Assembly: GCA_946554325.1 (NCBI GenBank)
Contig: CAMNSB010000004.1
Location: 1-44,155 of the forward strand
Length of the DNA stretch: 44,155 nucleotides
Origin: an uncultured Mycoplasmatota bacterium
GTDB taxonomy: Bacteria > Bacillota_I > Bacilli_A > RF39 > UBA660
Direction: 5' to 3'
A model generated the notes under the pieces. The model was not told where the DNA came from, searched no databases, and saw only the letters and a list, made by a program, of their open reading frames with translations. The position numbers and the translations under genes are program-made. Positions within the stretch are counted from its first letter, which is position 1. Each line of letters starts with the position of its first letter. This document shows positions 150 through 37,961 of the stretch, piece by piece.

Positions 150-178
150 TTGACTTTTTTTCTAAAAAATGCTATAAT
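150..178 (+). promoter_or_regulatory. Sigma70-type promoter TTGACT-17-TATAAT driving a putative antitoxin RNA
   Basis: TTGACT 150-155, TATAAT 173-178, spacer 17. Confidence 0.6.
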
Positions 179-184
179 ATGAAG

Positions 185-331
185 CATTCTTTATGAAAAA
201 GAAGTATTTTTATTCGAGTTTTGAATAAAAATAAAAATGAGATACACTTTTCTGATGGTGTATCTTAGTCCAATAATTTTATTATTGTTTGGGAAAACAC
301 CGTTTCAAAGTTGATTCGGTGTTTTCTTTTT
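185..331 (+). ncRNA. Putative antisense antitoxin RNA of a type I toxin-antitoxin locus
   Basis: Starts downstream of the consensus promoter, contains hairpin GATACAC/GTGTATC (241-264), ends at strong terminator 293-331; converges on the 330-404 ORF. Confidence 0.45.
293..331 (+). terminator. Intrinsic terminator, possibly bidirectional
   Basis: GAAAACACCG...CGGTGTTTTC perfect 10-bp stem followed by TTTTT. Confidence 0.75.
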
Positions 332-404
332 ATCTGTCTTTTGGGGTTTTGTTTATTAGTACTAGCAATACCACAAGTATTACTAAATACTCCATATAAC
401 TCAC
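330..404 (-). CDS. Small hydrophobic peptide, holin-like/type I toxin-like
   Basis: GTG start (or ATG at 395) after AAGGAGGTGATG; peptide MSYMEYLVILVVLLVLINKTPKDR, single TM plus charged tail; own upstream TATAAT-containing promoter (492-497). Confidence 0.5.
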   Translation of the reverse strand: MSYMEYLVILVVLLVLINKTPKDR

Positions 405-513
405 TTTCCATTGGACATCACCTCCTTATCTATTAATATATTTCTATAAAAATGGACTAAGAGGAAAAACACCAAGTGTATCTCGTTATTAATTATAATA
501 TAATTTTATGATT

Positions 514-951
514 TCAACAATCTATTTTTTCCAAATATCTGTAATGCTCTTTCTTTATACTATCCTCTGTCGCTTTATTCCCTATTTTCCAAGCGACTTG
601 CTGCCAACTTAGATTATCGATATATTTAAACTCAAATATCATTCTTAATCGTGATGTTGGTAGTTTGCTTATTTCTTCTTCTACTTTCGTTTGTAGTTCT
701 AATAATTTAATATATCTTTCATCTAAAATACATTTTTGCTTTTCTATCTCTTTTGCTTTTTTAAAATCTATATGACTTATCTTTATTTCGTGTAAGCAAA
801 AAGGAGGTTCTAGCGATGAAGCTTGAACCATACTATATTCATTATTCTTTTTTTCTAAATCAGATATTCTTTTTTCTAGATTTCTTATTTCGACTTGCAT
901 ATCGCAATATTGTAATAAACATTCTTTTAAAGTCATAACTCCCCTTTCCAC
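514..951 (-). CDS. Phage DUF1492/ArpU-like transcriptional regulator
   Basis: Coiled-coil N-term and C-terminal sigma-like HTH (LRMIFEFKYIDNLSWQQVAWKIG). Confidence 0.6.
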   Translation of the reverse strand: MERGVMTLKECLLQYCDMQVEIRNLEKRISDLEKKNNEYSMVQASSLEPPFCLHEIKISHIDFKKAKEIEKQKCILDERYIKLLELQTKVEEEISKLPTSRLRMIFEFKYIDNLSWQQVAWKIGNKATEDSIKKEHYRYLEKIDC

Positions 952-22479: not shown

Positions 22480-24432
<1,953 letters not shown>

Positions 24433-30811: not shown

Positions 30812-31621
30812 CTAATTAGAGGATTGTAACCTATAGTTTACAGGTGACAGTCCTTTTAATTTCACTTTAATTCTATCATAATTATAGTAGTTAATATAGT
30901 CATCTATTGCTAAGATTAATTCATTTATATTTTTATATTTATCTTCTTGGTCATAAAACATTTCTGTTTTCAAAAGTCCAAAAAAGTTTTCCATCATTCC
31001 ATTATCCATACTGTTTCCTTTTCTAGACATGCTTTGTTTAATTCCTTTATTCTTTAAGCGTTGTTGATAAGATTGATGTTGATATTGCCAGCCTTGATCT
31101 GAATGCAGGATTAATCCTTCTAGATTTTTACCTTGAAATGCTTTATTAAGCATATCATTTATTTGTTCTAAATTAGGTGATTTAGAAGTATTATAGGATA
31201 TTATTTCTCCATTATATCCATCTAATATTGGTGATAAGTAACATTTTTCTCCTCGAAGATTAAATTCTGTTACATCTGTATACCATTTTTTGTTAGGTTT
31301 ATCTGCATTAAAATCTCTTTCAATTAAATTATCAGCAATATTTCCAATTGTTCCTTTATAAGAAGAATACTTTCTTTTATTTCTTTTTAATGGTTTTAAA
31401 CCTAATTTAACCATTATCCTATAGACTTTCTTATGATTAATATTATAACCTTGATTTCTTAACTCTAATGTGATTCTACGATAACCATATCTTTCTTTAT
31501 TATTAATAAATATTTCTTTAATTTTATTAATAATCTCTTTATTTTTATCATCTTTATCTGTTTTGGATAAAGTATAATAATATACTGATTTAGCTAAACC
31601 AGATACTTTTAGAAGAATCAT
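30812..31621 (-). CDS. IS3-family transposase OrfB (DDE)
   Basis: KKWYTDVTEFNL, LILHSDQGWQYQH, GNSMDNGMMENFFGLLK; frame open upstream to about 31672. Confidence 0.93.
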   Translation of the reverse strand: MILLKVSGLAKSVYYYTLSKTDKDDKNKEIINKIKEIFINNKERYGYRRITLELRNQGYNINHKKVYRIMVKLGLKPLKRNKRKYSSYKGTIGNIADNLIERDFNADKPNKKWYTDVTEFNLRGEKCYLSPILDGYNGEIISYNTSKSPNLEQINDMLNKAFQGKNLEGLILHSDQGWQYQHQSYQQRLKNKGIKQSMSRKGNSMDNGMMENFFGLLKTEMFYDQEDKYKNINELILAIDDYINYYNYDRIKVKLKGLSPVNYRLQSSN

Positions 31622-31656
31622 TAATGGATATTTTAGCCGAAGTTCACTTACAACAT

Positions 31657-32169
31657 TTACTTTTTCTTCTGTTGTTGATTCTTCCTTGCTTGAACAACGG
31701 CTCTCAATTTTTTTGAGTATTCTAGCTCCGCAGATAAATACTGTACTTGTTCCTCAAGTCTTTTTATCTTTTCGTCTTTGGTTTCCTCTTTTTTTACTTC
31801 TTTTGGTTTTTTCATAATAGTTGGACTCCTTCCACGTTTTCGTTCAACTATATTATAACCATTTTCTTTATATTTTTTAATCCAATTATGTAACATTCCA
31901 TCACTTAATAGTCCAATGTCTATTGCAACTGTTTGAATTGGTTCATTATCTATTAAAACTCTATTTATTGCTTCTTCTTTAAATTGCTTTGGATATTCTT
32001 TATTTTTGGTTGTTCTAAGAATATCAAATCCATGCTTATCTATTAACCATACTAAATATTGAATATTGTGTTTAGTCATTCCATATTTTGATTGTAGAGT
32101 TTTTAGTGTTTCTCCTTCTTTTCTTTTGTTATATATTTCTATTTTTTCTTCATAACTCAATTTTGTCAT
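31657..32169 (-). CDS. IS3-family transposase OrfA
   Basis: HTH plus leucine-zipper C-term. Confidence 0.9.
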   Translation of the reverse strand: MTKLSYEEKIEIYNKRKEGETLKTLQSKYGMTKHNIQYLVWLIDKHGFDILRTTKNKEYPKQFKEEAINRVLIDNEPIQTVAIDIGLLSDGMLHNWIKKYKENGYNIVERKRGRSPTIMKKPKEVKKEETKDEKIKRLEEQVQYLSAELEYSKKLRAVVQARKNQQQKKK

Positions 32170-34351: not shown

Positions 34352-35695
34352 TTATTTTTCAAAATCATCACTTTTATCGTTATTTTTATTATTTTGTATA
34401 ATATCAATATCATTTTCATCAAGTATATCTTCGTTATATAAGTCATTTATGATGTCATCATATCTATCATAAAAAAAGAATTTGTTTTGTAAAAACTCTA
34501 TAAACTTTTTCCACAACTCTTTAAAGTAATCAACTATTTTTTGTAATTCTGATACTTTATCTTCTAACTCATCAATAGTTTCATTTGCATCATTTAAGTC
34601 ATATTCTAATTCTTCAATTCTATTATCACGAGTTTGGATTTTCTTTTTCAGGTTTCTAACTTCGTTAGAGTGCTCTCTTAAATCATCTTCATATTTTTTC
34701 AAGATAACATTTATATCGTTTTCGTCTCTTAAATTAGATGTAGTATCATTAGTTTGTTCTATATATTTTTTGATTTTATCTATATTTTCATTAGAAATAG
34801 TAAAATTATTTTTATTAGTGATAGTAGGTTTTAAACTATCAATAATATCATTAATTTCATTAGATTTATTTTGTAATTCATCTGTTTTACTATTTAATTC
34901 TTTAAGTTGTTTTTTATATTTTTCATGTTCTCTTTTAAACTTTTTATACTCGTTCATGTTAGCAACATTAATATCAACATTTCTTCCTTCTTCTTTTGCT
35001 TTAAGAGTATAGTTTAAATGATAAATTCTATTGAATGAATTAATACAATATTCTCTCATTTTGTCTTGAATATTTATTAAACTTATCTTATTAAACACAT
35101 CAGATTTACCAACTTGTTTTTCCATTCCATTTTTCATTCCATCTTTAAAGGGAACACCAACAATATGCAAATGTGGACTAGATTCATCAAAATGTATGGT
35201 GGCATTTGCTATTTTAAAGTTAGGTACAACTTCTTCTAAATCTATGATTTGTTCTTTAAAAACTTCTACCATTTTATGCTTGAATTTATCATCTTTATCA
35301 GACCAAAAGTCCATACCTCCAAGTTCAATAATAATCTCACAAGCAAGATCTCGTTTGTTATCATTTGAGATATGATTAAAATAGTTTTCTATCTTTCTAT
35401 CATTTCTAGTTTGCTTTTCGTTGTATTTAATTCTAGCATCTTCAAACAATTCCAAATACAATTTTTTAGTATCTTCAACAATAGAAGAAGTTCCTTTAAT
35501 CGTACAAATTAATTCTTTGTCCTCATCATATTTTCTCAAATTATGTTTATCAACTTTTGATAATTGCTGATGGTTTTGGATAGCATTATTATTAAAAGAA
35601 GTAGTATTAGTATCATTCGTTTTTGCTGTTCTTCTCGCTCTTTTTGATTTATTTTTATCATTACCTAAGTGTAATGAATAAGATAATTCTTCCAT
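34352..35695 (-). CDS. mobV: MOBV-type (Pre/Mob) relaxase
   Basis: ATIHFDESSPHLHIVGVPFKDGMKNG motif (HxDExxPHxH) and coiled-coil C-term. Confidence 0.9.
   Translation of the reverse strand: MEELSYSLHLGNDKNKSKRARRTAKTNDTNTTSFNNNAIQNHQQLSKVDKHNLRKYDEDKELICTIKGTSSIVEDTKKLYLELFEDARIKYNEKQTRNDRKIENYFNHISNDNKRDLACEIIIELGGMDFWSDKDDKFKHKMVEVFKEQIIDLEEVVPNFKIANATIHFDESSPHLHIVGVPFKDGMKNGMEKQVGKSDVFNKISLINIQDKMREYCINSFNRIYHLNYTLKAKEEGRNVDINVANMNEYKKFKREHEKYKKQLKELNSKTDELQNKSNEINDIIDSLKPTITNKNNFTISNENIDKIKKYIEQTNDTTSNLRDENDINVILKKYEDDLREHSNEVRNLKKKIQTRDNRIEELEYDLNDANETIDELEDKVSELQKIVDYFKELWKKFIEFLQNKFFFYDRYDDIINDLYNEDILDENDIDIIQNNKNNDKSDDFEK

Positions 35696-36029: not shown

Positions 36030-37961
<1,932 letters not shown>

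Follow-up and report, generated by a model that had tools for sequence, protein, structure and literature searches.

A putative par-like type I toxin-antitoxin locus in an RF39 prophage and its relatives in uncultured gut bacteria

Overview

We analyzed a 44,155-nucleotide stretch of DNA, referred to here as the window (positions 1 to 44,155 of contig CAMNSB010000004.1, GenBank assembly GCA_946554325.1), from an uncultured Mycoplasmatota bacterium (GTDB lineage Bacteria; Bacillota_I; Bacilli_A; RF39; UBA660). Near its start, two promoters face each other at positions 150 to 520, and the RNAs predicted from them overlap in one palindromic terminator. We interpret this locus as a type I toxin-antitoxin (TA) system with par-like architecture, and as a divergent representative of an extensive RF39 family that apparently has not been reported, with a probability of roughly 0.8. 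The words toxin and antitoxin denote presumed roles, assigned from sequence. The same layout of convergent promoters, shared terminator, and small hydrophobic open reading frame (ORF) was found in other genomes of the family, and the argument below rests largely on comparison with these relatives.

Anatomy of the locus

The functional parts of the locus are as follows.

150-178, plus strand: antitoxin promoter, with -35 TTGACT, a 17-nucleotide (nt) spacer, and a TG-extended -10 TATAAT (11 of 12 matches)
185-331, plus strand (5' end approximate): predicted antitoxin RNA, with two 5' hairpins, the X/X' hairpin (GAGATACAC/GGTGTATCTT), and the terminator
239-249, plus strand: X, 5' strand of the antitoxin specificity hairpin, GAGATACACTT
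257-266, plus strand: X', 3' strand of the antitoxin hairpin, complementary to toxin X, GGTGTATCTT
291-301, plus strand: Z, upstream terminator arm in the antitoxin RNA, complementary to toxin Y, GGGAAAACACC
294-325, both strands: shared palindromic bidirectional terminator, AAAACACCG/CGGTGTTTT
492-520, minus strand: toxin promoter, with -10 TATAAT at 497-492 and a weak -35 TTGTTG at 520-515
453-484, minus strand: toxin mRNA 5' region, with the X copy GAGATACACTT at 484-474, Y (GGTGTTTTTCC) at 473-463, and TCTTAGTCCA at 462-453
421-427, minus strand: strong Shine-Dalgarno (SD) sequence AAGGAGG (AAGGAGGTGAT), predicted to be sequestered by an upstream CCUCUUA
265-411, minus strand: overlapping leader ORF MESELYGVFSN..., with ATG at 411-409, 9 nt downstream of the strong SD and out of frame with the toxin
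330-395, minus strand: coding sequence of a 21-amino-acid (aa) peptide, MEYLVILVVLLVLINKTPKDR, presumed to be a membrane toxin; ATG at 395, placed by the starts of related peptides

The original prediction, made from the window alone, had proposed a well-spaced plus-strand promoter, an RNA of about 145 nt ending at the terminator, and a TATAAT -10 on the minus strand, and the sequence elements of each were recovered. The plus promoter ranked first among 18 promoter-like sites in a scan of the first 3 kb of the window, and relatives keep a TTGA -35 and a TATAAT -10 at the equivalent place relative to the antitoxin RNA. The terminator escaped the terminator scan, presumably because its 14-nt loop exceeds the length allowed, and is nearly identical to those of copies in other genomes.

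Structure and covariation of the two RNAs

Both predicted RNAs are strongly structured. The predicted folding energy is -46.4 kcal/mol (z -7.1) for the plus RNA and -51.4 kcal/mol (z -4.3) for the minus RNA, taken from about position 485, with 0 of 200 shuffles as good in either case. Across 36 diverse antitoxins, the 5' hairpin and the X/X' hairpin were paired in 96.4% of cells, and 72 cells had changed on both sides of a pair, against 21.6 in shuffles. Sliding the partner strand of the same hairpins by 1 to 3 columns left at most 43% of cells paired. The antitoxin leader is strikingly conserved in the family: its consensus TATAATGTATRYAGATGNNRGRAAYYNCATANAATAAAAAA comprises the -10 box and a 5'-terminal hairpin with a GAAA-type loop. 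In the window, the 5' leader differs, and two hairpins of its own stand where the family leader would be, but the antitoxin core, which spans GAGATAC through the terminator, can be aligned with that of relatives.

On the toxin side, the structure would act on translation. The window SD has a predicted probability of being unpaired of 0.016, compared with 0.37 when the upstream sequence is shuffled. This masking is general among the relatives, with a mean of 0.28 against 0.42 for shuffled upstream sequence (110 loci, Wilcoxon p 4e-8).

A small hydrophobic peptide under purifying selection

An SD-preceded hydrophobic ORF of 14 to 45 aa occurs in convergent position at 189 of 233 non-identical antitoxin leaders. 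Several peptide sequence types share the one RNA scaffold, including ME[YL]LV (the type found in the window), MxKKDFLI, MTKRE, MxKxTF, and others. The peptide frames are under purifying selection. For class 1, the class of the window peptide, the ratio of nonsynonymous to synonymous polymorphism (pN/pS) is 0.41 in the proposed frame and 0.71 and 1.09 in the other two; the remaining peptides give 0.33 in the proposed frame against 0.73 and 1.74 in shifted frames.

Comparison with relatives also moved the start of the window peptide. A 24-codon ORF, as originally proposed, is present at 404-330 on the minus strand, starts with GTG, is hydrophobic, and ends at the terminator, but related peptides begin ME[YL], with ATG, TTG, or GTG as start codon. 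These starts, together with the arrangement of SD and leader in this class, place the window start at the in-frame ATG at 395, giving 21 aa. The AAGGAGG proposed as the toxin ribosome binding site exists at 427-421, about 25 nt upstream of that ATG, but it precedes the leader ORF starting at 411; among relatives of the same class, a strong GAGGTGAT SD likewise precedes an overlapping out-of-frame leader ORF in 22 of 29. We rejected the leader ORF itself as the product, as its frame relative to the toxin varies and the ME frame shows the lowest pN/pS.

Two loci elsewhere in the genome of the window (L203, C1:20563; L205, C27:13275) carry a distinct, longer, MELFVLVLPKEINSLLQTILEIVREKKKRP-like peptide type that is less hydrophobic than the others.

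Cognate complementarity between toxin and antitoxin

Related sequences near the 5' ends of the two RNAs had been noted and taken as able to pair. The repeats are real: GAGATACACTT has two matches, one on the plus strand (239-249) and one on the minus strand (484-474), compared with a mean of 0.11 in shuffled versions of the window, and CTTAGTCCA follows both copies. Among relatives, the 5' end of the toxin mRNA repeats the initial 13 nt of X with a mean of 2.8 mismatches, against 4.7 for shuffled X. However, the repeats are inverted on the DNA and so give same-sense copies in the two RNAs. Pairing would therefore use the antitoxin hairpin strand X', which is complementary to toxin X, and the terminator arm Z, which is complementary to toxin Y. 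For the window, the predicted duplexes with the toxin 5' end have energies of -18.5 kcal/mol for Y (GGTGTTTTTCC) with Z (GGGAAAACACC) and -12.9 kcal/mol for X with X'.

This complementarity is specific to the cognate locus. Duplexes of Z with the cognate toxin 5' end average -16.6 kcal/mol, against -13.0 kcal/mol for re-paired loci (z -11.3, 91 loci), and a control with reversed toxin sequence gave no cognate gain (z +2.6). By longest Y:Z helix, the cognate signal reaches z +14.1, with a score of at least 7 in 123 of 153 loci compared with 41% of non-cognate pairings. We counted 77 distinct Y:Z cores, such as GGTGTTTT/AAAACACC, AAGCGTT/AACGCTT, TTGGGTGGAG/TTCCACCTAA, and TCAGATGCT/AGCATCTGA. 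The X, Y, and Z segments vary in concert between copies, which probably insulates the multiple loci of a genome from one another.

Distribution of related loci

R1, a covariance model built on the 5' portion of the antitoxin, matches 208 of 291 genomes of the family, usually in several copies and in at least 16 per genome at the upper end. At class level, it matches 34 of 346 genomes, 30 of them within the family, with almost none in the rest of the class. One of the four matches outside the family (L281, genome G628) is a real locus; another (L285, genome G551) was discarded as a false positive in an unrelated, tmRNA-like stretch. The genome of the window holds 12 R1 copies at E < 0.001, although E-values of this model are rough. 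A leader pattern scan of named genome contigs returned at least 119 stretches, and among the matches listed nearly all are from metagenome-assembled genomes of uncultured Bacilli, Candidatus Coprosoma, Faecisoma, and Ventrenecus; Coprosoma and Faecisoma are assigned to the order RF39 (PMC8035907), which would place the family of the window in that order. Comparison across hundreds of related loci supports the par-like convergent arrangement originally proposed, with a terminator common to both RNAs, 5' regions that resemble each other, and a small hydrophobic peptide. Among weak first-look matches, L008, L009, L011, L012, and L015 proved to be ordinary genes or tmRNA; L006, L007, and L010 lay outside this check.

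The original prediction had also suggested looking for the peptide and terminator arrangement in related phages. A complete class-1 locus, with the peptide MEYLVILLLILIVIADILKK, is present close to an integrase gene on a viral contig (L284:1-500; IMGVR_UViG_3300028591_000555), either inside the phage or in flanking host DNA. The other two of three viral-contig pattern matches (L282 and L283) were chance matches in apparent coding DNA, and DNA searches of phage and plasmid records with the window locus or with locus L014 gave no match.

Some loci are arranged in tandem, with TA units spaced 326 to 508 bp apart (L154:1178-2700, L068:6662-7500, and L113:980-2500, all plus strand). The last unit often consists of an antitoxin part without a clear toxin ORF, possibly an orphan antitoxin that could protect against its neighbors. 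In the genome of the window, a second copy of the antitoxin core (L002:1490-1592, minus strand, on G000:C65) is 84% identical over 97 bp, has a poor leader and no convincing toxin, and is apparently a remnant. Antitoxin-like leaders on contigs C72, C44, and C14 of this genome (L186, L195, L200, and L202) run into a shared 30-nt sequence, GAACCCCATTTCTTGGACATAGAAATGAGG, near contig ends, which suggests that a repeated mobile element is inserted just downstream.

Comparison with known systems

Database searches did not place the locus in a described family. Rfam gave no relevant match at gathering score and E-value, and searches of Pfam, NCBIfam, and PHROGs recognized no toxin family. The Pfam Ibs_toxin model scored the window peptide at 10.9 bits (E 0.48), far below its cutoff of 27. 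In the literature searched, type I TA systems had not been reported from RF39; T1TAdb toxin families were outside that search.

The closest architecture is that of par of pAD1 (Fst/RNA II, of the Fst/Ldr family; PMC7472228). Both have convergent promoters, a shared bidirectional terminator giving complementary hairpins, a second complementary region near the 5' ends, a 5' stem-loop (predicted here) hiding the toxin SD, and a tiny membrane peptide. They differ in several respects. The DNA direct repeats of par (DRa and DRb), read in opposite directions, are absent, and the 5' repeats here are same-sense, with pairing via X' and Z instead. The antitoxin RNA is longer, at about 145 nt compared with about 40 nt for RNA II (PMC7472228). 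The antitoxin of most RF39 relatives has a conserved 5' hairpin, and the subclass of the window adds the overlapping leader ORF. Lastly, the window peptide lacks the Fst signature, a conserved tryptophan between the transmembrane helix and the charged tail and a PXXXG or, more broadly, P/D/S/TXXXG motif. Among 169 distinct peptides, the tryptophan occurs in 8 and the motif in 3, and neither Pfam nor NCBIfam gave a match to an Fst model. The peptide, first described as not obviously Fst, is therefore not an Fst peptide, and the locus would work like par without being a member of the Fst group.

Other type I systems share individual features. The mRNAs of hok/Sok-type systems have an overlapping leader ORF and 5'-3' pairing. 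Like hok/Sok and AapA/IsoA (PMC6733600), the RF39 loci show predicted SD masking and 5'-3' complementarity with covariation in the toxin mRNA, and the leader ORF overlapping the toxin start in the subclass of the window recalls mok/hok. In contrast to both, the antitoxin here is convergent and shares the terminator, and the peptides are unrelated by profile search. Ibs/Sib resembles the locus in its very short (18 to 24 aa), almost wholly hydrophobic peptide, although profile similarity is weak. Sib RNAs cover the full length of ibs in antisense, whereas RNA overlap here is confined to the 3' terminator. In TxpA/RatA and BsrG/SR4 of Bacillus, a convergent antisense RNA encoded on prophage-like elements overlaps the mRNA of a small hydrophobic toxin at the 3' end, as in the window. 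The toxin sequence and size, the 5' X/Y elements, and the terminator-based code set the RF39 loci apart from these.

Genomic setting

The locus lies at the contig edge, inside a prophage, and adjoins a RinA-type regulator. Within the same 15 kb are genes for RecT and a CI-type repressor, as well as an integrase gene adjacent to a tRNA.

Beside the prophage is a region resembling one or more integrative elements. Two related 641-aa proteins that look like large serine recombinases (22480-24405 and 36030-37955, minus strand), each with tRNA genes nearby, are separated by about 13 kb. The interval holds a mobilization-like protein (34352-35695) and what may be an IS3-type transposase pair (30812-32169).

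Proposed mechanism

In our model, the presumed toxin is the 21-aa peptide, a single membrane helix encoded by the minus-strand mRNA. A hairpin would close the SD of this mRNA, and its 5' segment Y could pair with its own terminator arm. In the peptide subclass of the window, toxin translation is probably coupled to that of the overlapping leader ORF. The plus-strand RNA would act as the antitoxin. Contact would probably begin between the complementary terminator hairpins; pairing of the antitoxin strands X' and Z with toxin X and Y, respectively, would then lengthen it or confer specificity. This pairing would keep the toxin mRNA untranslated or lead to its degradation. On a prophage, the likely use would be retention of the element through post-segregational killing, or defense.

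Several observations weigh against this reading. In the Y:Z test, the palindromic terminator gives reverse-complement controls a signal as well (z -5.0 and -9.4); pairing of Y with its own terminator arm within the toxin mRNA is thus inseparable, in these tests, from pairing between toxin and antitoxin. Two-strand minimum free energy predictions gave the antitoxin no gain over shuffled RNA on the toxin 5' untranslated region (-4.6 compared with -5.0 kcal/mol), because the X/X' hairpin and the terminator are taken up by their own folding. Contacts through X and Y must then arise kinetically or come after terminator pairing. The shared terminator region is fully complementary (-37 kcal/mol for the window RNA pair), and set beside the null result this makes terminator-first contact the likelier route, as in par, where contact begins through the terminators (PMC7472228). 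Further, the -35 of the toxin promoter is poor, which explains why the promoter scan did not list it. Finally, the antitoxin leader in the window departs from the consensus of its relatives, without their 5' hairpin, and R1 does not detect this copy, which could therefore be decaying.

Alternative explanations

The strongest rival, which we nevertheless consider unlikely, casts the peptide as a small membrane protein with a regulatory or structural role, such as a modulator of stress or of the envelope, whose synthesis the convergent RNA tunes. The evidence on the peptide shows only that a tiny hydrophobic product is conserved, and the presence of several conserved families in multiple chromosomal copies would fit a physiological role. 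Against this stand the tandem arrays of 326- to 508-bp units, the many peptide types carried by one RNA scaffold, the tight SD masking, and the private pairing codes, all of them more typical of toxin control than of a single housekeeping protein.

Slightly less probable still is that function is restricted to the chromosomal relatives, the copy in the window being a decayed remnant or else a cis-regulatory or terminator element. Besides the divergent leader and the weak -35 described above, the orphan antitoxin-like copy without a clear peptide in the same genome (L002) would be in line with decay. However, both -10 boxes, the SD, the leader ORF, the peptide frame, X/X', Y/Z, and the terminator are intact in the window. 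The plus RNA carries two 5' hairpins of its own at the place of the family leader, and the viral contig carries a similar complete locus beside its integrase gene.

It is very improbable that the plus-strand RNA is instead an mRNA for its own hydrophobic peptide: a 25-aa ATG ORF (MRYTFLMVYLSPIILLLFGKTPFQS, 237-314) is present, but it has no SD in front, relatives have no ATG at that place (AAAAAAGAGATAC), and a hydrophobic SD-preceded ORF occurs on that strand in only 13 of 233 loci compared with 189 on the toxin strand, so we rejected it as a gene.

Implications

Returning to the type I TA reading, we think it somewhat probable that RF39 harbors a previously undescribed superfamily of RNA-controlled membrane peptides. 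One antitoxin scaffold, consisting of the conserved promoter, the 5' GAAA-loop hairpin, the X/X' hairpin, and the terminator, would serve several unrelated toxin families; a fast-changing X/Y/Z code would insulate more than 10 copies per 1- to 1.5-Mb genome, and phages would use the same kit. If so, this family, which is present in about 70% of the sampled genomes of a genome-reduced, uncultured gut lineage, often in five to sixteen copies, would rank among the larger RNA-controlled toxin families known. It would offer a natural test of how specificity is maintained between RNA partners, with a code testable by swaps, and a candidate retention or defense system for reduced-genome gut bacteria and their phages.
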